64,000 nt of DNA from Lacunisphaera limnophila (GTDB taxonomy: Bacteria > Verrucomicrobiota > Verrucomicrobiia > Opitutales > Opitutaceae). Positions 1,357 through 56,217 of the stretch are shown piece by piece; position 1 is the stretch's first letter; each line of letters begins with the position of its first letter. Under the pieces are notes generated by a model. It saw only the letters and a list, made by a program, of their open reading frames with translations, searched no databases and was not told where the DNA came from. A program made the position numbers and the translations under genes. Location: assembly GCF_001746835.1 (NCBI RefSeq), contig NZ_CP016094.1, forward strand, positions 2,619,501 to 2,683,500. The letters are read 5' to 3'.

Positions 1357-3516
1357 GTGCCCGTTTCCAGTTCCAACTCCATCACCCGCCTGCTGCAGCG
1401 CGCCGACCTGCTCTTCGCCTTCGGCCTGTTCGGGACGGTGCTGCTCCTGGTGCTGCCGGTGCCGCCGTTCATCATCGACGTGCTGCTGGCCCTCAACATC
1501 GGCATGTCGCTGCTCGTGCTGTTGGCCATCGTCTACGTGAAGGATCCGCCCGAGTTCTCCGGCTTCCCCGTGATGCTCCTCGGCCTCACGCTCTTCCGCC
1601 TCGCGCTTAACATCAGCTCCACCCGCCAGATCCTCGCCACCGGCTACGCGGGCGAGATCATCGAGTCCTTCGGTCACTTCGTCATCCAGGGCAACTACGT
1701 CGTCGGTGCGGTGGTGTTCATCATCCTGGTTTTGATCAACTTCGTCGTCATCACCAAGGGTGCCGGCCGCATCGCCGAGGTGAGCGCGCGTTTCACCCTC
1801 GATGCCCTCCCCGGCAAACAGATGGCCATCGATGCCGAGCTCAACGCCGGCATCATCGACGAGGTCACGGCCACCGCCCGCCGCCTCAAGGTGCAGAAAG
1901 AAGCCGACTTCTACGGCGCGATGGACGGCGCCTCCAAGTTCGTGCGCGGCGATGCCGTCGCCGGCATCCTGATCACCCTCGTCAACGTCCTCGGTGGCTT
2001 CGCCATCGGCGTGCTTCAGATGGGCCTGTCCCTCGGCGAGTCGCTCCAGAAGTTCACCCTCCTCTCGATCGGTGACGGTCTCGTCTCGCAGATCCCGGCC
2101 CTCATCATCTCCATCGGCGCCGGCCTCCTCGTCACCCGCGCCTCCGACAACAACAACATCGGTGCCCAGATCGCCGGCCAGATCGTCCGCTACCCGCGCG
2201 CCCTGAAGCTCGCCGCCGGGTGCATGGCCGTCTTCGGCCTCATGCCCGGCATGCCGCTCATCCCCTTCATGGGCCTCGCCGGCCTGGCCATGTTCGCCGC
2301 CCGCTCCTTCAAGGATACCGAGGGTGGGGAAGCAGAGCTGGCCCCCGTGGCCGCCAAGCCCGGTGCCAAGGGCACCGCCACCCCCGCCGGCAAGCCGGGT
2401 GAGGCGGGGACCACCGCGACCGCCGCCCCCGCCACCGAGGACGTCCGCAAGCTCACCGAGGTCGACACCTTCTCCATCGAGATCGGCTACGGCCTGCTCC
2501 CGCTCGCCGAGGTCCGCAACGGCGGCGACCTGCTCGCCCGCGTCACCGGCGTCCGCAAGACCCTCGCTCGCGAGAAGGGCATTGTCGTCCCGCCGGTCTC
2601 CGTGCGCGACAACCTCGAGCTTGAGGCCAATGACTACCGCTTCCTGCTCCGCGGCAAGCCGCTCGCCCGCGGAACCATCCTGCCCGGCCGCCTCCTCGCC
2701 ATGAATGTCGCCGGCAGCACCATCAAGCTCCGCGGCCAGCCCACCCGCGAGCCCGTCTTCAACCTCGAGGCCACCTGGATCGACGAGGGCGAACGCAAGA
2801 CCGCCGAGCTGAACAATTTCACCGTGGTGGATCCGTCGTCCGTCCTGATCACGCACCTTTCCGAGACCCTCAAGGCCAACTCCCACCTGCTGCTGGGCCG
2901 CCAGGATGTCTCCTCGCTCATCGACCACCTCAAGGGCTCGCATGCCGCGCTCGTCGCCGAGCTGCTGCCCGATCTCGTCAACCTCGGCATCATCCAGCGC
3001 GTCCTCCAGAACCTCCTGCGCGAGGGCATCGCGATCATCAACCTGCCCATCATCCTCGAGGGCATCGCCGACTTCGCCTCGCTCTCGAAGAATCCCGATG
3101 ACCTCAGCGAACTCGTCCGCCGCCGCCTCGGCATCTACTTCGTCCCCGAGCTGGAATCCCGCCCCGGCGCGCTCCGCGCCATCACGCTGGATCCGCGCTT
3201 TGAGCAGGTGCTCGGCACCAAGGTCCACCGTTCCCCGACCGATGTCGGCCTCTCCCTCGACCCGGCGACCGGCCGTCACCTCATCGACCAGCTCAACCGC
3301 CACATCGCGACCCTCACCACCGCCGGCGCCGCCGCCGTCCTGGTCGTCTCCACCGAGAATCGCCTGCCCGTGAAACGCTTCCTCGAGCCGTCCTTCCCGC
3401 GTCTCACCGTGCTGGCCTACCAGGAGCTGCCGGCCTCCACCGAGATTGAGAACGCCGGCATCATCCCGCTCCCGCTCCACCTCCAGCGCCAGGAACCCGT
3501 GAAGGCCGCCGCCTAA
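1357..3516 (+). CDS. flhA: Flagellar export apparatus protein FlhA
   Basis: FlhA forms the nonameric ring of the flagellar type III export gate and docks export chaperones with their cargo. The 719-residue length is normal for the family. The first half (about residues 20-320) is membrane-embedded, with the conserved FHIPEP-type core including the stretch around PGKQMAIDAEL. An Ala/Pro/Gly-rich linker (about 330-365) leads to the cytoplasmic domain. The start is a GTG directly behind the pyrimidine-rich arm of the hairpin repeat, without a Shine-Dalgarno sequence. It is flanked by flhB and flhF, the usual order. Confidence 0.97.
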   Translation: MPVSSSNSITRLLQRADLLFAFGLFGTVLLLVLPVPPFIIDVLLALNIGMSLLVLLAIVYVKDPPEFSGFPVMLLGLTLFRLALNISSTRQILATGYAGEIIESFGHFVIQGNYVVGAVVFIILVLINFVVITKGAGRIAEVSARFTLDALPGKQMAIDAELNAGIIDEVTATARRLKVQKEADFYGAMDGASKFVRGDAVAGILITLVNVLGGFAIGVLQMGLSLGESLQKFTLLSIGDGLVSQIPALIISIGAGLLVTRASDNNNIGAQIAGQIVRYPRALKLAAGCMAVFGLMPGMPLIPFMGLAGLAMFAARSFKDTEGGEAELAPVAAKPGAKGTATPAGKPGEAGTTATAAPATEDVRKLTEVDTFSIEIGYGLLPLAEVRNGGDLLARVTGVRKTLAREKGIVVPPVSVRDNLELEANDYRFLLRGKPLARGTILPGRLLAMNVAGSTIKLRGQPTREPVFNLEATWIDEGERKTAELNNFTVVDPSSVLITHLSETLKANSHLLLGRQDVSSLIDHLKGSHAALVAELLPDLVNLGIIQRVLQNLLREGIAIINLPIILEGIADFASLSKNPDDLSELVRRRLGIYFVPELESRPGALRAITLDPRFEQVLGTKVHRSPTDVGLSLDPATGRHLIDQLNRHIATLTTAGAAAVLVVSTENRLPVKRFLEPSFPRLTVLAYQELPASTEIENAGIIPLPLHLQRQEPVKAAA

Positions 3517-3523
3517 CGAACCC

Positions 3524-3615
3524 AAGTAAGAATTAAGAAGGAAGAAGGACGAAACTAAGCCACCCGAACCGGAAACCGACCCTTTCTTAATTCTTCCTTC
3601 TTACTTCTTCCTTTC
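3524..3615. repeat. Purine/pyrimidine hairpin repeat, copy 2 (flhA-flhF spacer)
   Basis: The left arm (3524-3549) runs AAGTAAGAATTAAGAAGGAA and onward; the right arm (3584-3615) is its imperfect complement built from TTCTTCC/TTACTTC units. The loop again contains CCACCCGAACC. The right arm stops 7 bases before the flhF ATG. Confidence 0.88.
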
Positions 3616-11276: not shown

Positions 11277-12383
11277 ATGACACGGATGTTGCCCAGACTG
11301 CTCTCCCTCGCCCTCGCGCTGCTCACCACCGGCGCGCTGCAGGCTTCGCGCGTGAAGGACCTGACCCTCATCGAGGGCGGGCGCGACAATCAGCTGGTCG
11401 GCTACGGCATCGTGGTCGGCCTCGCCGGTGACGGCGACAGCAACGCGGTCTCCACCCTCCGCGCCGTCTCCAACATCCTCTCCCGTCACGGCCTCAACGT
11501 CGACTCCACCGAAATCAAGGCCAAGAACGTCGCCGCCGTCATGCTCACGGCCGACATCGCCGCCTTCCTCAAGCCCGGCGCGCGCATCGATGTCACCGTT
11601 GCGGCCATGGGCGACGCCAAGTCCCTCCAGGGCGGCGTGCTCCTCCAGACCCCGCTCATCGGTGCCGACGGCCGCGTCTACGCCGTCGCCCAGGGCCCCG
11701 TCGCCATCGGCGGCTTCCTCGGCGGTGCCGGCGGTGCCGGCGGCGCCACCGTCCAGAAGAACCACCCGACCGTCGGCAGCATCAGCAACGGCGCCATCGT
11801 CGAGCGCGAGATCGCCGCCGAGTTCGTGACCGACAACACCCTCCGCCTTCTCCTGCACAACCCCGATTTCACCTCCGCCGCTCGCATGGCCGACGCTATC
11901 AACGACCGCTACCCGGGCTCCGCCCATGCCGTCGACGCCGCCACCATCAAGGTCGGCCTCCCCGCCGAATACGCGGGCCGCGACGTCGCCTTCCTCGCCG
12001 ACCTCGGCACCGTCCAGGTCGAACCCGATACCCTCGCCCGCATCGTGATCAACGAGCGCACCGGCACCATCGTCGCCACCTCCACCGTCCGCCTCTCCCA
12101 GGTCGCCATCGCCCACGGCTCGCTGACGATCACCGTCACGTCGAACGTCGGCGTCAGCCAGCCCAATTCCTTCAGCCCGAACGGCCAGACCGTCGCCGTC
12201 CCCACCACCCAGACGGCCGTCAGCGAGGGCAAGGGCGGGTTCACCGTCCTCAACGAGTCCCCGAGCATCGAGCGCCTCGCCGCCGCCCTCAACTCCCTCG
12301 GCGTCTCCACCCGCGACATGATGGCCATCTTCCAGTCCCTCAAACGCTCCGGCGCCCTCCAGGCCGAACTGGTCATCAATTAA
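11277..12383 (+). CDS. flgI: Flagellar P-ring protein FlgI
   Basis: FlgI polymerises around the rod in the peptidoglycan layer. The 368-residue protein has a signal peptide (MTRMLPRLLSLALALLTTGA, then LQA) and the conserved start of the mature protein, SRVKDLTLIEGGRDNQLVGY, followed by GIVVGLAGDGD. The family C-terminus (SIERLAAALNSLGVSTRDMM) is intact. A short Gly/Ala stretch (GGFLGGAGGAGGATVQ) is present. The TAA stop is part of the left arm of a hairpin repeat. Confidence 0.96.
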   Translation: MTRMLPRLLSLALALLTTGALQASRVKDLTLIEGGRDNQLVGYGIVVGLAGDGDSNAVSTLRAVSNILSRHGLNVDSTEIKAKNVAAVMLTADIAAFLKPGARIDVTVAAMGDAKSLQGGVLLQTPLIGADGRVYAVAQGPVAIGGFLGGAGGAGGATVQKNHPTVGSISNGAIVEREIAAEFVTDNTLRLLLHNPDFTSAARMADAINDRYPGSAHAVDAATIKVGLPAEYAGRDVAFLADLGTVQVEPDTLARIVINERTGTIVATSTVRLSQVAIAHGSLTITVTSNVGVSQPNSFSPNGQTVAVPTTQTAVSEGKGGFTVLNESPSIERLAAALNSLGVSTRDMMAIFQSLKRSGALQAELVIN

Positions 12384-12474
12384 GAAGTAAGAAGGAAGAA
12401 TTAATAAGTACCGAACCACCGAACCGAACCACCGCCTCCAAGAATTTCTTCCTTCTTACTTCATCCTTTCCTCC
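12381..12474. repeat. Purine/pyrimidine hairpin repeat, copy 3 (flgI-flgJ spacer)
   Basis: The left arm TAAGAAGTAAGAAGGAAGAA starts at the flgI stop codon itself. The right arm (12446-12470) includes TTCTTCCTTCTTACTTCATC. The loop repeats the unit CGAACCAC (CCGAACCACCGAACCGAACC). The right arm ends just before the flgJ ATG. Confidence 0.88.
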
Positions 12475-12814: not shown

Positions 12815-13311
12815 ACGAAGCCTGGCCCATTATCGCGGAGTCCCTCCGCACCGAGATCGCCGGCTTCGGCGGCCTCCTCAACCTCTTCGAGCGGCAGCAG
12901 CAAAGCCTCTTCGCCCGCGACACCGAGGCCGTCCTCCACCTCAGCGGCGAGATCGAAGCCCATACCCGCGTCATGGCTGAGCACCGGGCCAACCGCGAGC
13001 AGATCGTCGGCGCATTTGCCCTGGCCCACCAGCAGCCCGCCACCGCCACCCTCCGCTCCCTGCTCTCCTTCATCCCCGCCGACGCGCGCCCGCTCCTCGA
13101 GGCCCTCATCGACGAGGTCAACGTGCTCATCCATCGCGTCCGCCGCCTCACCCGCCAGAACCACAGCCTCCTCGCCCGCACGGTCGAGACGCACCAGGAA
13201 CTCCTCCGCACCCTCCGGCCCGACGCCTTCCTGCACACCTATTCCCCCTCCGGTCGCAAGAGCCTCACATCCAACGCCCGCACCGCCGGCACGTTGCAGG
13301 CCGCTGGCTGA
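12811..13311 (+). CDS. flgN: FlgN-family flagellar export chaperone
   Basis: FlgN-type chaperones bind the hook-filament junction proteins FlgK and FlgL before export. The 166-residue product is mostly helical with heptad-like character (LLNLFERQQQSLFARDTEAV, RVRRLTRQNHSLLARTVETH), and it sits directly before flgK and flgL, as is usual. Sequence conservation in this family is low, so the call rests on size, helicity and position. The start (ATGA overlap with flgJ) has a GGAGG 8 bases upstream, unlike the non-overlapping genes around it. Confidence 0.75.
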   Translation: MNEAWPIIAESLRTEIAGFGGLLNLFERQQQSLFARDTEAVLHLSGEIEAHTRVMAEHRANREQIVGAFALAHQQPATATLRSLLSFIPADARPLLEALIDEVNVLIHRVRRLTRQNHSLLARTVETHQELLRTLRPDAFLHTYSPSGRKSLTSNARTAGTLQAAG

Positions 13312-13317
13312 ACCAAC

Positions 13318-13418
13318 CAAGTAAGAATTAAAAAGTAAGACGGATGAAAATCCGACCCACCGAACGAAACCCTTCCCCTCAGATTTCTTAATTCTTCCTT
13401 CCTCCTTCTTAATTTTCC
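13318..13418. repeat. Purine/pyrimidine hairpin repeat, copy 4 (flgN-flgK spacer)
   Basis: The left arm (13318-13340, CAAGTAAGAATTAAAAAGTA and onward) faces a right arm (13384-13418) with TTCTTAATTCTTCCTTCCTC. The pairing is more degenerate than in the other copies. The loop keeps CCACCGAACG. The flgK ATG follows after 4 bases. Confidence 0.83.
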
Positions 13419-27105: not shown

Positions 27106-27128
27106 GTAGCGGCGGTCTATGACCGCCG
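27106..27128 (+). repeat. GTAG-headed REP element (GGCGGTC stem)
   Basis: GTAG, then a stem GGCGGTC/GACCGCC around TAT. It is like the elements at 49277 and 59497, with GGCGGTC in place of GGCCGGTC; several stem positions differ in a compensated way. Confidence 0.8.
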
Positions 27129-27141
27129 ACTCCGCTATCCT

Positions 27142-27167
27142 GTAGGGCAGGATTTCCAAATCCCGCC
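27142..27167 (+). repeat. GTAG-headed REP element (GGGATTT stem)
   Basis: GTAGGGCAGGATTTCC followed by AAATCCCGCC; one mismatch in the stem relative to the copy at 27353. Confidence 0.85.
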
Positions 27168-27228
27168 ACGCCCGCCGGCGGCATGCGGAGATGTCGCCCT
27201 TCACAACCCCGCCAAACCCCAGAGTATT

Positions 27229-27337
27229 GCCGCAAAAAGTCACAAGTACCCGGCCGCGGATGAAGCCTTCAAGGCGACTATAGTCGCGCGGAAGATTTGC
27301 GAGTGCAGGACGAAAGCCTTTTGCGCCTCTTTGCGGC
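27229..27337 (+). repeat. ~110-bp structured dispersed element, copy 1
   Basis: The ends are inverted copies: GCCGCAAAAAGTCACAA at the left and the complement of GCCGCAAAGAGGCGCAAAA at the right. The centre (27274-27287) is the perfect palindrome GCGACTATAGTCGC, followed by GCGGAAGAT. A second copy in opposite orientation is at 45217-45326. No open reading frame is carried, which suggests a MITE-like or other structured element. Confidence 0.85.
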
Positions 27338-27352
27338 TAACCTTGCCTTGCT

Positions 27353-27378
27353 GTAGGGCGGGATTTCCAAATCCCGCC
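27353..27378 (+). repeat. GTAG-headed REP element (GGGATTT stem)
   Basis: GTAG, then GGCGGGATTT pairing with AAATCCCGCC around CC. It abuts the 3' end of the VOC gene on the opposite strand. Confidence 0.87.
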
Positions 27379-36332: not shown

Positions 36333-36427
36333 AGTAGCGAGCATCGAGGAGCGAGTAGCGAGCAGACCAAGCTCCTACTCGCTTTCTTTTTTATCCTGCT
36401 CGCTACCCGCTACTCACTACCCGCTAC
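36333..36427. repeat. GTAGCGAG hairpin repeat, copy 1 (gap-pgk spacer)
   Basis: The left arm (36333-36364) is built of AGTAGCGAG/AGCGAGC units; the right arm (36398-36427) of GCTCGCTACCCGCTACTCAC units, so the two can pair. The right arm leads into CTCCTCCTCCCCCC before the pgk ATG. Confidence 0.88.
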
Positions 36428-36441
36428 CTCCTCCTCCCCCC

Positions 36442-37716
<1,275 letters not shown>

Positions 37717-37723
37717 TATCCAT

Positions 37724-37810
37724 AGCAGCGAGTAGTGAGTAGCGAGTAGCGAGCATCTCGCGATTCCTACTGAATTTCTACTCGCTACCCACTACTCGCT
37801 ACTCACTACT
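37724..37810. repeat. GTAGCGAG hairpin repeat, copy 2 (pgk-tpiA spacer)
   Basis: Left arm (37724-37754) AGCAGCGAGTAGTGAGTAGC and onward; right arm (37778-37810) TACTCGCTACCCACTACTCG and onward. The arms are complementary with few mismatches. The spacer has nothing else. Confidence 0.9.
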
Positions 37811-45195: not shown

Positions 45196-45216
45196 AACAA
45201 GGCATCAAGCGGGTTG

Positions 45217-45326
45217 GCCGCGAAAAGGCGCAAAAAGGGTTTGGTCCGGCTAGCCCCGATCTTCCGCGCGCCTATAGGCGCCTTGAGAGCTGCACTCGCG
45301 GCCGGGTATTTGTGCCTTTTTGCGGC
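45217..45326 (-). repeat. ~110-bp structured dispersed element, copy 2 (inverted)
   Basis: On the minus strand it begins GCCGCAAAAAGGCACAAA and ends with the complement of GCCGCGAAAAGGCGCAAAAA. The central palindrome is GCGCCTATAGGCGC (45268-45281), differing from copy 1 by a paired A-T to C-G change, and is followed, as there, by GCGGAAGAT. Confidence 0.85.
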
Positions 45327-45353
45327 AATCCTCCGGGGCTTGGTATTGGCGGA

Positions 45354-45376
45354 CCGGGGTGAGCGACCCCGGCTAC
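45354..45376 (-). repeat. GTAG-headed REP element
   Basis: On the minus strand GTAG, then CCGGGGT/ACCCCGG around CGCTC. Confidence 0.75.
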
Positions 45377-50229: not shown

Positions 50230-53200
50230 TCAGAGACCCGCCTGACCCAATTTCTCGCGGAGGTACGGCGCCGTGGGGCTGCGTTTCACCTTCAGCAGGC
50301 CGGCTAGCTCGCCTTGGTAGAGGATCTCGCCGCCGCGGGGGCCGCCGCCGGGACCGAGCTCGAGGATGTAGTCGGCCTCGGCGAGGAGGTCGAGGTGGTG
50401 CTCGATCACGACGACGGTGTGGCCCTGGTCCACCAGGTTGTGGAGGACCTTGATGAGCTTCTCGCAGTCGCTGAGGTGCAGGCCGATGGTCGGCTCCTCG
50501 AGGAGGTAGAGATTGCGGATGGTGATGTTGCGGGAGCGTTCCTGGTAGCTTTGCAGGCCCTTGGTCAGCTCGGTGACGAGCTTGAGTCGCTGAGCCTCGC
50601 CGCCGGAGAGCGTCGGGCTGCTCTGGCCGAGGGTCAGGTAACCAAGGCCGCAATCGATCATCAGCTGGCACACCTGCGAGAGCTGCGAGTGGAAGTCGAA
50701 GAACGCCGCGGCCTCGTCGAAGGTGAGTTGCAGGACCTGGCCGATGGTTTTGCCCTTCCAGGCGATGTCGGCCAGTTCGGGTCCGAAGCGGGAGCCACCG
50801 CAGGCATCGCAGGGCAGGTAGGAGTCGGCCATGAAGGCCATCTCGAGCTTGATGCGGCCGGCGCCGGAGCAGGTCTCGCAGCGGCCGCCGGCGGTGTTGA
50901 AGGAGAAGCGACCGGCGGTGTAGCCGCGCATCTTCGCCTCGGGCAGCGTGGCGAAGAACTGGCGGATGAGATCGAAGATGCCGAGGTAGGTGGCGGGCGT
51001 GGAGCGCGGGGTCTTGCCGATGGGGGCCTGGTCGACCTCGATGACGGATTTGAAGACGTTCGCGCCGGTCAGGGTGGCGAAGGGTTCCACGCTGGGTCGC
51101 GGGCGACCCCGCCCGCGGGCGGGCGTGCGCGGCGAGGTCGCCGCGCCTCCATCAGCATCAAATTTCGCGAGCTTCACGAATTCCTTGCCGGTGAGCTTGG
51201 CCTTGCGGTGCTTGATGGCGCAGGTGACGGCGGGGTGGAGGATGTCGCGGAAGAGCGTGGACTTGCCGGCGCCGCTCGGGCCGCAGGCCATGATCAGGCG
51301 GCCGGGCGGGAGGCGCAGGGACTGGTCCTGGAGGTTACGGTAATTGATGCTGGTGAGCGTCAGGGAATTTGAGATGTCAGATTTGAGATTTGAGAGGGGG
51401 CGATACGAGCCGCGGAGCGGGTGCTTGATCCCCTTCGCCAGGAAAAGACCGGTCAGGGAGGTGTCGCTGGCCTTGATTTCGGCGGGGGTGCCGTTGGCGA
51501 GGATGCTGCCGCCGTGGACGCCGGCGCCTGGGCCGAGGTCGATGATCCGGTCGGCGCGGGCCATGAGGACATCGTCGTGCTCGACGACGAGGAGCGTGTT
51601 GCCCTTGGCGCGGAGCGACTGGAGGGTGTCGATCAGGCGGTCGTTGTCGCGGGCATGGAGGCCGATCGAGGGTTCGTCGAGGACGTAGAGCACGCCGGAG
51701 AGGTTCGAGCCCAGCTGGGCGGCCAGGCGGATGCGCTGGGCCTCGCCGCCGGAGAGGGTCTCGGTCGGGCGTTCCAGCGAGAGGTAGTCGAGCCCGACGT
51801 GCCCAAGGAATTTCAGGCGTTCCTCGATCTGGGGCACGATGTCCTGCGTGATCAGCTTGGTGCGCGCATCGAGTTGGAGGCCGCGCAGGGTGGCGATCAG
51901 CTCGCCCGGGACGAGGCGGAGAAGCTCGGGCAGGGAGATCGTGGATTTGAAATTAGAGATTTCAGATTTGAGATTTGCGCGCAGCGGGAGCCGGACGGCA
52001 CGGGCGATGCGATTCAGGCGCTCGCCATGGCAGGTGGGGCAGGCGGAACCGTGGGACGCCGGGTCATCGGGGTCGAACGCGCGGAGGGCGTCGGCGACCT
52101 CGTCGGACCGTTCGTCGTCCTCGTCGGGCTGTAGCATCCAGTCGTAGATACGGCCGTGGCCGCGGCAGGTCGGGCACCAGCCGCGCGGGGAATTGAAGGA
52201 GAACTGCTTCGGGTCGAGTTCGGGGAAGGACTCGCCGCTGGCGATGTCGGTGCGCGTGGTGGAGAACCAGCCGAGGACCGCGCCGGAGGGCAGGGCAATG
52301 AAGCAGGAGCCCTTGCCCAGCCGCAGGGCGGTGGCCAGTTGCTCATGCAGCCATTTGGGGTTGGCCGGATTTTTCAGGTCGGCAATCACGACCTCGATGT
52401 CGTGTTCCTTGTAGCGGTCGAGTTTCTGGAAGGTGTCGGTGCGGAGGAGGCGGCCGTCGGCGCGCATGAGCGCGTAGCCCTGTTTTTCGATCCACTTGGC
52501 GATGGGCTCGTGGTGGCCCTTGCGGCCGCGGACGAGCGGGGCGCAGAGATACAGATGCTTCGCTTTTTTGGCCGGCGGAGTGGCGAGGGTTTTGGTGAGC
52601 AGCGCGCGGAGCTGGCTGGGGGAGAGCGGGGTGACGGGTCGGCCGGACTCGGGGTGGTGCTGGACGCCGGCGCGGGCGTAGAGCAGGCGCAGGTATTGGG
52701 CGACCTCGGTGATGGTGGCGACGGTGGACTTGCGCGAGCCGCGGGTGATGCGCTGCTCGATGGCGACGGTCGGCGGGATGCCGGTGAGGCGGTCGATGTC
52801 GGGGCGCGGCAGTTGCTCGACGAACTGGCGCGCGTAAGGCGACATGGATTCCATGAAGCGGCGCTGGCCCTCGGCGAAGATGATGTCGAAGGCGAGGGTG
52901 GACTTGCCCGAGCCGGAGACGCCGGTGACGACGGAAAGCTGGCGGTGCGGAATCGAGACGGAGATGTTCTTCAGGTTGTTCTCGCGGGCACCGATGACGT
53001 TCAGTTCGCTGGTGTTCATCACCAAACCGGTGCGGTAGGGGGCCGGGTCCTCGGCGGCTTGCAAATCGAAGGCGGGGTTCGGCGACCCCGCCCTACAGTT
53101 CAGGGCATCCCGGAGGAAGGGGGAGGTGGCGGTGTCGGCTTGGGCGATGAGCTCGGGCGGGCCTTCGGCGACGATGCGGCCGCCGCCCGAACCGGCCTCG

Positions 53201-56200
53201 GGTCCGACCTCGAGGATCCAGTCGGCGGATTTCAGGACGTCGAGATTGTGTTCGATGACGATCACGCTGTGGCCGCGGTCGACGATGCGCTGGAGGACCT
53301 CGAGCAGGCGCTGCACGTCGTGGCGATGGAGGCCGGTGGTCGGCTCGTCGAGGAGGAGCAGGGCACCTCCTTGAATTTCAGATTTCAGATTCGAGAGTTG
53401 AGGATCGGCGCCGGTATAGTCGGAGAGGTAACGGACGAGCTTAAGGCGTTGGGATTCGCCGCCGGAGAGGGTGTTGAGCGGCTGGCCGAGGGGGAGGTAG
53501 CCGAGGCCGACGGCCTCGAGGGAGGCGAAGCGGGTGCGGATGCTTTCGAGGGCGGCGGGGGTGTCGCGAGCGATCTCGCTCCGATTCTGCGGCGCAAAGA
53601 AGGCAATGGCGTCGGTGATGGTGGTGCGGAGGAGGTCGTCGATGGATTTGCCGTGCCAGCGGATGGCGAGCACCTCGGGCTTGAAGCGGCGGCCCTCGCA
53701 GATCGGGCAGGGGACGAAGACGTCGGAGAGGAACTGCATCTCGACGCGTTCGCTGCCGAGGCCCTGGCAGTGGTCGCAGCGGCCCTCGCCGCTGTTGAAC
53801 GAGAAGCTGGAGGCGCTGAAGCCGGCCTCCTGGGCGGCGGGGGTCTGCGCGTAGAGTTCGCGGATGAAATCCCAGGCTTCGCAGTAGAGGGCGGCGTTGG
53901 AACGCGGCGTGCGGCTGAGCGGCGACTGGTCGACGAGGACGATCTCGGGAAAGGCCTGGTCGCCGGTGATGGCCTCGATGCTGGCCGGATCCTCGGTCAT
54001 CTGGTTCCGGTGGGCGAGCAGGCCCTGGTGGATGACGTGGTCGAGGAGGGTGGATTTGCCGGAGCCGGAGACGCCCGAGAGGCAGACCAGCCGCTGCAAG
54101 GGCAGGGAGAAAGTCAGGTTGCAGATGTTGTGCTTGGAGGCGTTGGTGAAGGTCAGCCAGGGAGCCGTTGATTTTGGCTTAACTCGCGGCCCAGCTGGAG
54201 CTGGGCCCTCCACGGGGCGGCGGTGGGCGGGGGTGGGGATGTCCTGGCGGCCGGAGAAGTAGGCGCCGGTGATGCTGGGGGCGGAGCGGAGCATCTGGGG
54301 GACGGTGCCCTGAAAGACGACCTCGCCGCCGCGGGCGCCGGGCTCGGGGCCGATCTCGATGACGTGGTCGGCGGCGCGGATCATGGCTTCATCGTGTTCG
54401 ACCACGACGACCGTATTGCCGGTGTCGGTGAGTGTACGGATGATGCCGAGCAGGCGGTTGATGTCGCGCGGGTGGAGCCCGACCGAGGGCTCGTCGAGGA
54501 CGAAGAGCGTGTCGACGAGCGAGGTGCCGAGGCAGGAGGTGAGGTTGACGCGCTGGACCTCGCCGCCGGAGAGGGTGCGCGAGCTGCGGTCGAGCGTGAG
54601 GTAGCCGAGGCCGACCTGCTCGAGGTAGCGGAGGCGGGTGACGATGGAATCGTAGGCGAGGTCGCGCTGGTGGTGGGTGGCCGCATTCTCGCGGGGTGGG
54701 GGCACCCCGCCTCCATGGGATTGGACGAGGGCGAGGAGCTGGCTGACGGGGAGCTGGTAGAGCTCGGGGAGGGTGTGGCCCTGCCATTTCCAGCAGAGGG
54801 ACTCGGGCTGGAGGCGGGTGCCGTGGCAGTCGGGGCAGGGGTTGTACGAGCGGAAGCGCGAAAGGAAGACGCGCACGTGCATCTTGTAGGTCGTCTTCTC
54901 AAGATAGCGGAAGAAGCCCTTGAGGCCGTACCACAGCTTGGGCCAGTTCTTGGCCGGGTTGTCGCTGTCGTAACCGGGCGAACCTTCGATCACGAAGGTC
55001 TGTTGCTCCGGGGTGAGGCGGGCAAAGGGGACGTTGGTCGGGATGCCGAGTTTCTTCGTGAACTGGAGCAGGTCCTTCTTGGATTCGCCGTAGACCTCGC
55101 CTTCCCAGGCCTTGATGGCGCCCGCCTCGATCGAGAGGGAGTGGTCGGGGATGGCGAGGCGGTAGTCGATGTCGATGACGCGGCCGAAGCCGCGGCACTT
55201 CGGGCAGGCGCCGAGCGGGGAGTTGAAGGAGAAGAGCCCGGGCGAGGCGGGGCGGAAGGTGCGGCCGGTTTTCGGTGAATGCAGCCCGCGGGAGAAGTGG
55301 CCGGCGGGGGTGAATTGGAGATCTGAGATTTCCGATTTGAGAGGCGTTTCCCGTTGCGGCGTGCTCGCCGCCCGGGATGCGTCCGCAGAACTCGCGCGCC
55401 ATTCGTCGCGATTCTGCGGCGCAAAAAGATGAACTTCGCCCTTGCCGAAATGGAGGGCGGTCTCGGTGGCCTCGAGGAAACGGGACTTGTTCTCGGCGGC
55501 GAGGCGGAGGCGGTCCTGGATCACGAACACGGCTGAGCTGCTGGAGTCCAGCGATTGAGATTTGGGGGCGGCCAGCAGGTCCTCGATCTTGTGCAGGGCC
55601 AGATCGGATTTGGGCTCGGGCTGTTGGGATGGGGCGTTGGCATGTCCCAGCAGTACGCGCGTGTAGCCCTGGCCTTTGAGGCTGGTGAGGATCTCAGGCC
55701 AGGTGAGGTTGTCGGGTTTGGTGATGCGGAAGCAGAGCAGGAGGGTCTCAGCCGCGTGGGCGGCAGAGGTCTTGGCCCAGATGGTGGCGGGGGAGTCGTC
55801 CTCGACGGGCTCGCCGGTCTCCGGGTCGAAGCAGCCGGCGACGTGGCTGAACCAGACTTTGAAGTAGTCGGTCAGCTCGGTCATCGTGCCGACGGTGGAG
55901 CGCGAGGTCTTGACCGTGTTGGTCTGGCTGATGGCGATGGAGGGGCGGATGTTCTCGACGGAGTCGACCTTGGGTTTGTCGAGGAGGTCGAGGAACTGGC
56001 GGGTGTAGGCGCTGAACGTCTCGACGTAGCGGCGCTGGCCCTCGGCGTGGAGGGTGTCGAAGACGAGGGAGGACTTGCCCGCACCACTCAGGCCGGTGAC
56101 GACGACGTAGCGGCCGAGGGGGACGTCGAGGTCGAAGCCCTTGAGGTTGTTCTGGCGGACGCCGCGCAGGCGGATGGCTTCGGGGGCGGGAGCGGGGCGG

Positions 56201-56217
56201 GAGGCGGCGGGAGGCAC
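50230..56217 (-). CDS. uvrA: Tandem-fused excinuclease UvrA (class III), with repeat-derived insertions
   Basis: UvrA recognises DNA damage as a dimer with UvrB. This 1995-residue protein is two UvrA units in one chain (about 1-1050 and 1067-1995), with four ABC modules. Walker A sequences are GLSGAGKSS (42-50), GVSGSGKST (twice) and GPSGAGKST; signature motifs are [24 protein letters not shown] and LSGGEAQR. Zinc-finger CxxC pairs occur in both halves (CPKC, CDHC, CPIC; CPTC, CETC, CDAC). Eight insertions match dispersed genomic repeats, at about residues 293, 502, 670, 940, 1041, 1414, 1608 and 1690. A canonical shorter UvrA may exist elsewhere, freeing this copy to tolerate them. It could be a resistance-type or stress paralog. 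Confidence 0.93.
51095..51150. repeat. Repeat-derived segment in uvrA (GGTCGC/GCGACC hairpins)
   Basis: GGGTCGCGGGCGACCC is itself a hairpin, and GCGCGGCGAGGTCGCCGCGC is a second one. Together they encode the insertion [20 protein letters not shown] and following residues. Confidence 0.7.
51365..51394. repeat. A+T-rich repeat coding [11 protein letters not shown] in uvrA
   Basis: GAATTTGAGATGTCAGATTT and GAGATTTGAG on the plus strand; one of four copies of the same family in this gene. Confidence 0.85.
51943..51978. repeat. A+T-rich repeat coding [12 protein letters not shown] in uvrA
   Basis: GGATTTGAAATTAGAGATTT followed by CAGATTTGAGATTTGC: the longest copy of this family in the window. 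Confidence 0.87.
53071..53096 (-). repeat. GTAG-headed REP element inside uvrA
   Basis: On the minus strand GTAG is followed by GGCGGGGT/ACCCCGCC, identical to the intergenic element at 63492-63521. It is translated as part of [12 protein letters not shown] in the linker between the two UvrA halves. Confidence 0.88.
53371..53400. repeat. A+T-rich repeat coding LSNLKSEIQ in uvrA
   Basis: TTGAATTTCAGATTTCAGAT and TCGAGAGTTG on the plus strand, encoding [10 protein letters not shown] just before the Walker B region of the second ABC module. Confidence 0.85.
54188..54207. repeat. Palindrome GGCCCAGCTGGAGCTGGGCC inside uvrA
   Basis: A palindromic 20-mer encoding part of GPAPAGPRV in a linker. 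The adjoining GGGCCCTCCAC recalls the repeat at 56318-56390. Confidence 0.7.
54691..54715. repeat. GGGGTGGGGGCACCCCGCCTCC repeat inside uvrA
   Basis: The same palindrome as the right half of the repeat at 48152-48228. It encodes [10 protein letters not shown]. Confidence 0.83.
55312..55341. repeat. A+T-rich repeat coding [10 protein letters not shown] in uvrA
   Basis: GAATTGGAGATCTGAGATTT followed by CCGATTTGAG on the plus strand. Confidence 0.85.

Follow-up and report, generated by a model that had tools for sequence, protein, structure and literature searches.

Two related segments of about 110 bp lie on opposite strands of a 64,000-nucleotide stretch of the Lacunisphaera limnophila genome and carry matched base changes in a central palindrome, which raises the question of whether they are copies of a mobile DNA element or of a structured RNA. 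The whole stretch (hereafter, the window) corresponds to bases 2619501-2683500 of a one-contig genome of 4,199,284 bp (G000). Sequence comparison within the window and the genome placed copy 1, arm to arm, at positions 27229-27337 of the forward strand and copy 2 at positions 45217-45326 of the reverse strand. The kinship of the two segments, already noticed in a preliminary description, was confirmed at these positions with an E value of 3.6e-13 within the window and of 1.8e-22 in the whole genome, at 81% identity. They form by far the longest inverted pair of the window, with 111 nt at 81% as against 45 nt at most for the rest of the pairs listed. The similarity reaches past the arms, to about 140 bp; with these semi-conserved outer ends the copies occupy positions 27214-27353 on the forward strand (2646714-2646853 of G000) and 45201-45341 on the reverse strand, which is the span of the covariance model used below.

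Each copy contains 18-bp inverted arms and a 14-bp central palindrome. In copy 1 the left arm is found at 27229-27246 (alignment pair columns 20-37) and the inverted right arm at 27320-27337, both on the forward strand; in copy 2, read in the orientation of the element on the reverse strand, the left arm is at 45309-45326 and the right arm at 45217-45234. The central palindrome reads GCGACTATAGTCGC in copy 1 (27274-27287, forward strand; 5-bp stem and TATA loop) and GCGCCTATAGGCGC in copy 2 (45268-45281, reverse strand), each then followed by GCGGAAGAT; these sequences and the arms are as first described. The neighbours of copy 1 are a glyoxalase-like gene and a GMC-oxidoreductase gene, which match separately in relatives, and those of copy 2 are rpmB, encoding ribosomal protein L28, and a cytidylate-kinase-like gene.

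Other repeats were observed in the same region. GTAG-tagged hairpins, which we take to be REPs, adjoin both copies (27106-27129, 27140-27167, 27351-27378 and 45354-45376), and short stretches matching them recur many times in congeners. Spacer repeats of the AAGTAAGAATTAAGAAGTAAGAAGGAA type are found at 1234-1285, 3503-3554, 12350-12401 and 13298-13349, and repeats of the AGATTTGAGATTT type at 51365-55344, inside a 1995-aa open frame (ORF 50230-56217, reverse strand). A 29-nt inverted pair (36397-36425 and 37727-37755) brackets ORF 36442-37716.

The search for further copies, which the preliminary description had proposed, was carried out with a covariance model (R1) built from seven copies of the window genome. 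At E ≤ 0.01, R1 matched 24 of 57 genomes, the window genome among them. The others were 14 of 20 congeners, 7 of 16 genomes from other Opitutaceae genera and 2 of 20 from the order, several of the matches outside the genus being weak; no match was obtained in 6 of the 20 congeners, several of whose genomes are incomplete. In the window genome 11 loci matched with E values from 9e-38 to 6.3e-10, with weaker ones below. Match counts per congener, both strands being counted, ranged from 0 to at least 56. Among the matches listed, at least 19 were in G012 and at least 87 match positions were in Opitutaceae strain TAV5 (G025; chromosome published, PMC4358385), as model matches whose core was checked in part. 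In a sample of the phylum, 18 of 288 genomes matched at E ≤ 1e-5, and the best locus in each of the eight matching genomes outside Opitutaceae had the arms and lacked the core.

The exact 18-bp core pattern was searched in a collection of 84,980 species and was found in at least 120 stretches. Together with one viral contig (L446), which has the core plus both arms, these stretches contain 127 core occurrences, of which 119 have both arms, five have one arm and three have none, whereas the two-arm architecture was present at 7 of 800 random positions. Among the matches listed, the core without arms was seen in a Roseinatronobacter MAG and in a Patescibacteria MAG (the latter a single site, counted on both strands). 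The other core-bearing titles among these matches were Opitutaceae, Opitutae, Opitutia and Verrucomicrobia, with one given only as 'bacterium', and genera such as Lacunisphaera, Oleiharenicola, Opitutus, Rariglobus and Cephaloticoccus. Six stretches titled Akkermansia or Akkermansiaceae (L326, L363, L381, L409, L432 and L439) have an Opitutaceae-type core and both arms; these titles may be wrong. Plasmid and phage collections gave no match at E 1e-5. The two segments of the window belong to a dispersed element of Opitutaceae that is non-coding and imperfectly palindromic. Among the titles listed for repeats of Opitutaceae and Verrucomicrobia none concerned this family, and four of its motif strings occurred in none of the papers searched.

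The consensus of 89 copies, chosen by hand and aligned, reads T-N-GCCACAAAAAGGCACAAAA, an interior of about 25 nt, GCGCC-TATA-GGCGC, GCGG, about 35 nt and TTTTTGTGCCTTTTTGTGGC-N-A. Each arm, of about 18-20 bp, consists of two units with a spacing of about 10 bp (CCACAAAAAG and GCACAAAAA), and the arm consensus, GCCACAAAAAGGCACAAA, is not self-palindromic and has no GTAG tag. Between the arms there are a poorly conserved interior and the central hairpin, whose stem is variable but complementary and whose loop is TATA. Of 91 anchored copies, 89 measure between 106 and 112 nt; this variation by single bases, from which alone coding capacity was judged, fits the earlier statement that no ORF is carried. 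For counts on the arms 125 copies were used (134 fetched, minus seven that could not be anchored and two longer than 116 nt).

Pairing was evaluated on the 89 aligned copies. In arms and core together, 94.0% of the cells are standard pairs, as compared to 35-56% when the structure was slid along the alignment. Double-changed cells were 97, against 34.3 (sd 4.6) after shuffling, a number reached in none of 500 shuffles; related sequences may exceed such shuffles even without structure, and the slid structures served as the second control. The core helix is paired in 99.5% of its cells, with stem variants GCGCC, GCGAC, GCGTC, GCCTC, GCATC and GCGCT facing their complements and a few unpaired cases. 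The central stem is therefore compensated throughout. A lack of further copies, or palindromes varying without compensation, had been named in advance as the outcomes that would speak against the proposal; with more copies at hand and compensation in the central stem, neither was obtained.

In TAV5, the arms co-vary between copies with similar interiors, being GCCGCGAAAGGGCGC or GCCACGAAAAACACG. The nearest relative by interior shares the arm type in 19 of 22 copies, so that few arm switches are needed, and the 80-95% identity of these 22 interiors to their nearest relative reflects a recent expansion. The base outside each arm (T-N-GCC / GGC-N-A) is complementary in 19 of 96 congeneric copies, which is below chance (1 of 20000 shuffles was as low); in TAV5, opposite to the genus, it is paired in 16 of 22 copies. 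The outer motif CCAAGGCAG was considered as a separate repeat used as a target, and this was rejected: in 11 of 15 locus matches (two of them being one site), drawn from loci mostly chosen for the element, it adjoins the arms, and for this reason it is treated as a semi-conserved end.

The gene context of 127 anchored copies was determined with a home-made codon-usage caller. Seventy-one copies lie in gaps between tandem genes, 26 between divergent and 15 between convergent genes, 14 at contig edges and one inside a called gene. In the tandem gaps the element is nearer to the upstream stop than to the next start in 58 of 71 cases (medians of 20 vs. 61 nt), and its orientation relative to the genes is even (36 same, 35 opposite). 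No replication-strand bias was observed among the matches listed (59/108), a set that is incomplete below about 47 bits.

Sites without the element, which the preliminary description had suggested looking for in sister strains, do exist: presence and absence differ between species at orthologous positions. Beside a gene which, from its first codons, we take to be gltX, three species have the element and six do not, of nine readable on both flanks. This gap is not simply empty, since it contains a different palindrome in G008 (L459/L470) and yet another in G003 (L455) and G014 (L456), with two arm types. At the rpmB site R1 detects the element in the window genome only; in the corresponding loci of 18 congeners (about 3.4 kb each), four of which align on both sides, it finds nothing. 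At a third site the element is present in G011 and G018 and absent from G003. Where an orthologous copy was found with both flanks (20 pairs, which share members), identity was 83% in the arms and 90% in the core vs. 56% in the interior, indicating drift in the interior and retention of the arms and core; the pairs were found through the model, and decayed copies are consequently under-counted and intact ones over-represented. Unrelated copies of other congeneric genomes gave 82%, 90% and 44%, respectively.

The same orthologous sites revealed that the interior can be reversed. When the interiors of 21 pairs (non-redundant by element sequence and representing about 19 sites, three pairs sharing one) were aligned with the flanks fixing the orientation, 16 were direct and five aligned better inverted. 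The score differences ranged from -16 to -38.5 for the inverted pairs and from +8 to +38.5 for the direct ones, with none between, and in a smaller set 5 of 19 pairs were inverted. In the L357/L400 pair, for example, the interior is reversed and the arms and both flanks align in place. The arms, in turn, change in concert: in 20 orthologous pairs, 19 arm pair-sites had changed on both sides, as compared to 9.0 expected if the sides were independent, and 10 of these 19 are Watson-Crick in both species. In the core, two such changes were counted vs. 0.2 expected. One-sided arm differences were 75 as compared to the 19 two-sided ones, so homogenisation would be partial. Template switching has been described as homogenising the arms of inverted repeats and inverting their spacers (Abraham and Hazkani-Covo, 2021; PMC8604942), and the interior inversion together with the excess of two-sided arm changes resembles this double signature. 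A dedicated recombinase that flips the interior at a specific site, switching the neighbouring genes, would also produce the five inversions; however, these were seen only between species whose flanks are 71-84% identical and therefore look slow, which makes a switch of this kind very improbable.

Compensatory changes in bacterial repeats are usually taken as evidence of RNA structure. A folded RNA tolerates G-U and not A-C, whereas in DNA the two are one mismatch, read on one strand or on the other. When tandem copies were read on their transcribed strand, the ratio of G-U to A-C cells was 57:54 in the genus (57 copies), 2:4 in TAV5 (nine copies) and 61:60 overall (68 copies), and in the core alone it was 4:6; the mismatch cells are non-independent and clustered at few positions, and the test is indicative. 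On the model strand, the ratio was 82:106 in the genus, 25:5 in TAV5 (22 copies) and 8:4 in G035, and the total of 115:115 results from the sum of opposite group tendencies. The G-U excess of TAV5 is due mostly to two positions of one left-arm variant. The near-equal numbers on the transcribed strand and the even orientation argue that RNA folding is not the general cause, less clearly so in TAV5, and the paired exchanges resemble a feature of DNA more than one of RNA. An mRNA 3'-end stabiliser, processing site or terminator, maintained by selection on RNA folding, would account for the compensated stems, the nearness to upstream stops and the TAV5 model-strand excess, and REP and ERIC sequences are reported to act in mRNA (PMC3733652; PMC2229807). 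Nevertheless, of the 112 copies that could be classified 26 are flanked by divergent genes, and an Rfam 15 covariance search of the window gave no match at gathering score (the best sub-threshold match at copy 1 had an E of 0.36), and we consider an RNA of this type unlikely. Folded as DNA, the two window copies were no better than shuffles (z of 0.09 and -0.64).

Selection might instead act on a chromosomal protein-binding site, architectural or regulatory, with the arms as operator and the core as a second site. Within the arms certain positions are fixed and others vary freely, a pattern that pairing alone does not explain, arms and core remain family-like at orthologous sites, and the low complementarity of the arm-adjacent base in the genus is in line with this. 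A housekeeping site, however, would not be expected to range from 0 to at least 56 matches between congeners, the letters of the core stem are free to vary if paired, and the distribution over replication strands is unbiased; such a role is thus rather doubtful. The inverted ends, variable interior, extragenic position and length of about 110 bp recall a REPIN of a RAYT system, and Y1 transposase genes were found in 37 of the 57 genomes, in addition to the putative GTAG REPs beside both window copies. On the other hand, the arms are not GTAG-tagged hairpins, no arm pair surrounds the Y1 gene at any of 50 Y1 loci (a subset of the Y1 matches, both of those in G000 included), and in G019, which is 91% complete, the element was matched but no Y1 gene was found. 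Arm-like matches at these 50 loci amounted to one with a single mismatch, more than 1 kb from the gene, and to others with two mismatches at four further loci. Mobilisation by a RAYT or TIRYT enzyme is therefore unsupported at these loci, and that the family is a true REPIN set seems improbable.

Direct marks of transposition were also sought. Target-site duplications, suggested in the preliminary description, did not appear: no offset or length of flank repeat stood out in 125 copies, though old copies could have lost one. No longer autonomous element was seen in the closed G000 (31 arm matches) or in G012 (74), allowing up to one mismatch, and neither genome has, within 8 kb, a facing pair of arms that are otherwise unpaired. 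In G012, every arm pair separated by up to 7.1 kb either includes an arm of an element of about 110 bp or is part of a shorter palindrome.

Palindromes without the core, whose arms are of the same type and often have three units, also occur in the genus and elsewhere in the phylum. At one site aligned between G003 and G017 (both flanks 86-88% identical), the core-bearing element of G003 corresponds to a core-less palindrome in G017. Close by, in the same loci, the reverse is seen: the palindrome of G003 lacks the core, and in G017 a core-bearing element precedes a sequence resembling the old right arm. The change at this second site was no clean exchange. On account of the presence and absence of the core at these two sites, the element might be composed of two separable modules: widespread decamer-arm palindromes acting as long-lived landing sites, and a mobile hairpin core, TATA-looped and specific to Opitutaceae, that enters them, flips within them and leaves. 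We regard this as possible and put it forward tentatively; if true, it would represent a mobile DNA hairpin that targets palindromes. In G012, repeat-like sequences of the TGTCATCCTGAGC type are seen between or beside the arms of core-less palindromes (L264, L268 and L275), those in L264 with GGGCGTGTTTGCAAAAT ends.

ERIC (IRU) sequences share a palindromic character with the element. They are described as small (127 bp), non-autonomous intergenic repeats of enterobacteria, with a 7-bp TIR, TA termini and a target-site duplication (PMC2229807), and on this description they differ from the Opitutaceae element, which has 18-bp arms and no duplication signal. Among known kinds, REPINs and MITEs come closest. 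REPINs, as described by Bertels and Rainey (2011; PMC3116915), have a pair of conserved, inverted ends and a spacer of lower conservation, may form a long hairpin and are extragenic, multi-copy and proposed to be non-autonomous mobile DNA, all of which the element resembles; it differs in having arms that are not GTAG REP palindromes, a conserved central hairpin and no repeat beside a RAYT gene at the 50 Y1 loci. MITEs are defined by TIRs of 15-30 bp, a length of 70-300 bp and no coding capacity (Di Nocera et al., 2013; PMC3733652). The 18-bp arms, the length, the lack of coding capacity (as judged from length variation alone) and the sites with and without the element agree with this, whereas target-site duplications (125 copies) and an autonomous relative (G000 and G012) were not found. 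Since defining features of both kinds are missing, the element is assigned to neither, and is compared to them only in the way it works. The TIRYT families in the same source are likewise dispersed TIRs, some of them in genomes with GTAG REPs, and O. terrae is called highly enriched in GTAG repeats; there, however, the TIRs flank a tyrosine transposase gene, an arrangement not found with the element arms at the 50 Y1 loci. The template-switched inverted repeats of PMC8604942, similar in arm homogenisation and spacer inversion, are coding repeats of yeast with 2-5 bp changed in inverted spacers, whereas the interiors concerned here measure about 70 bp and belong to a repeat family.

On the whole, we think it probable that this is a dispersed, non-autonomous REPIN/MITE-like element, with arms partly homogenised and an interior flipped by template switching. 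It would spread as non-autonomous mobile DNA in the manner of MITEs and REPINs, through a putative activity for which the arms would be recognition sites at the DNA level. During chromosomal replication, template switching from arm to arm would sometimes copy one arm onto the other, giving rise to the 'compensatory' changes, and may sometimes flip the interior. Since template switching alone would not keep the letters of the arms, recognition or selection would also be needed. Of the two possibilities left in the preliminary description, the non-autonomous element fits best, and the structured RNA is disfavoured by the equality of G-U and A-C on the transcribed strand; similarly, where selection on a structure or its copying had been proposed for the paired exchange, copying better suits the sites with and without the element, the interior inversion and the concerted arm change. 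Compensatory changes without G-U preference on the transcribed strand, together with the inversion of orthologous interiors, point to a DNA process. With well over a hundred copies, some of which are orthologous, the family represents a natural series in which bacterial template switching and palindrome turnover can be measured.
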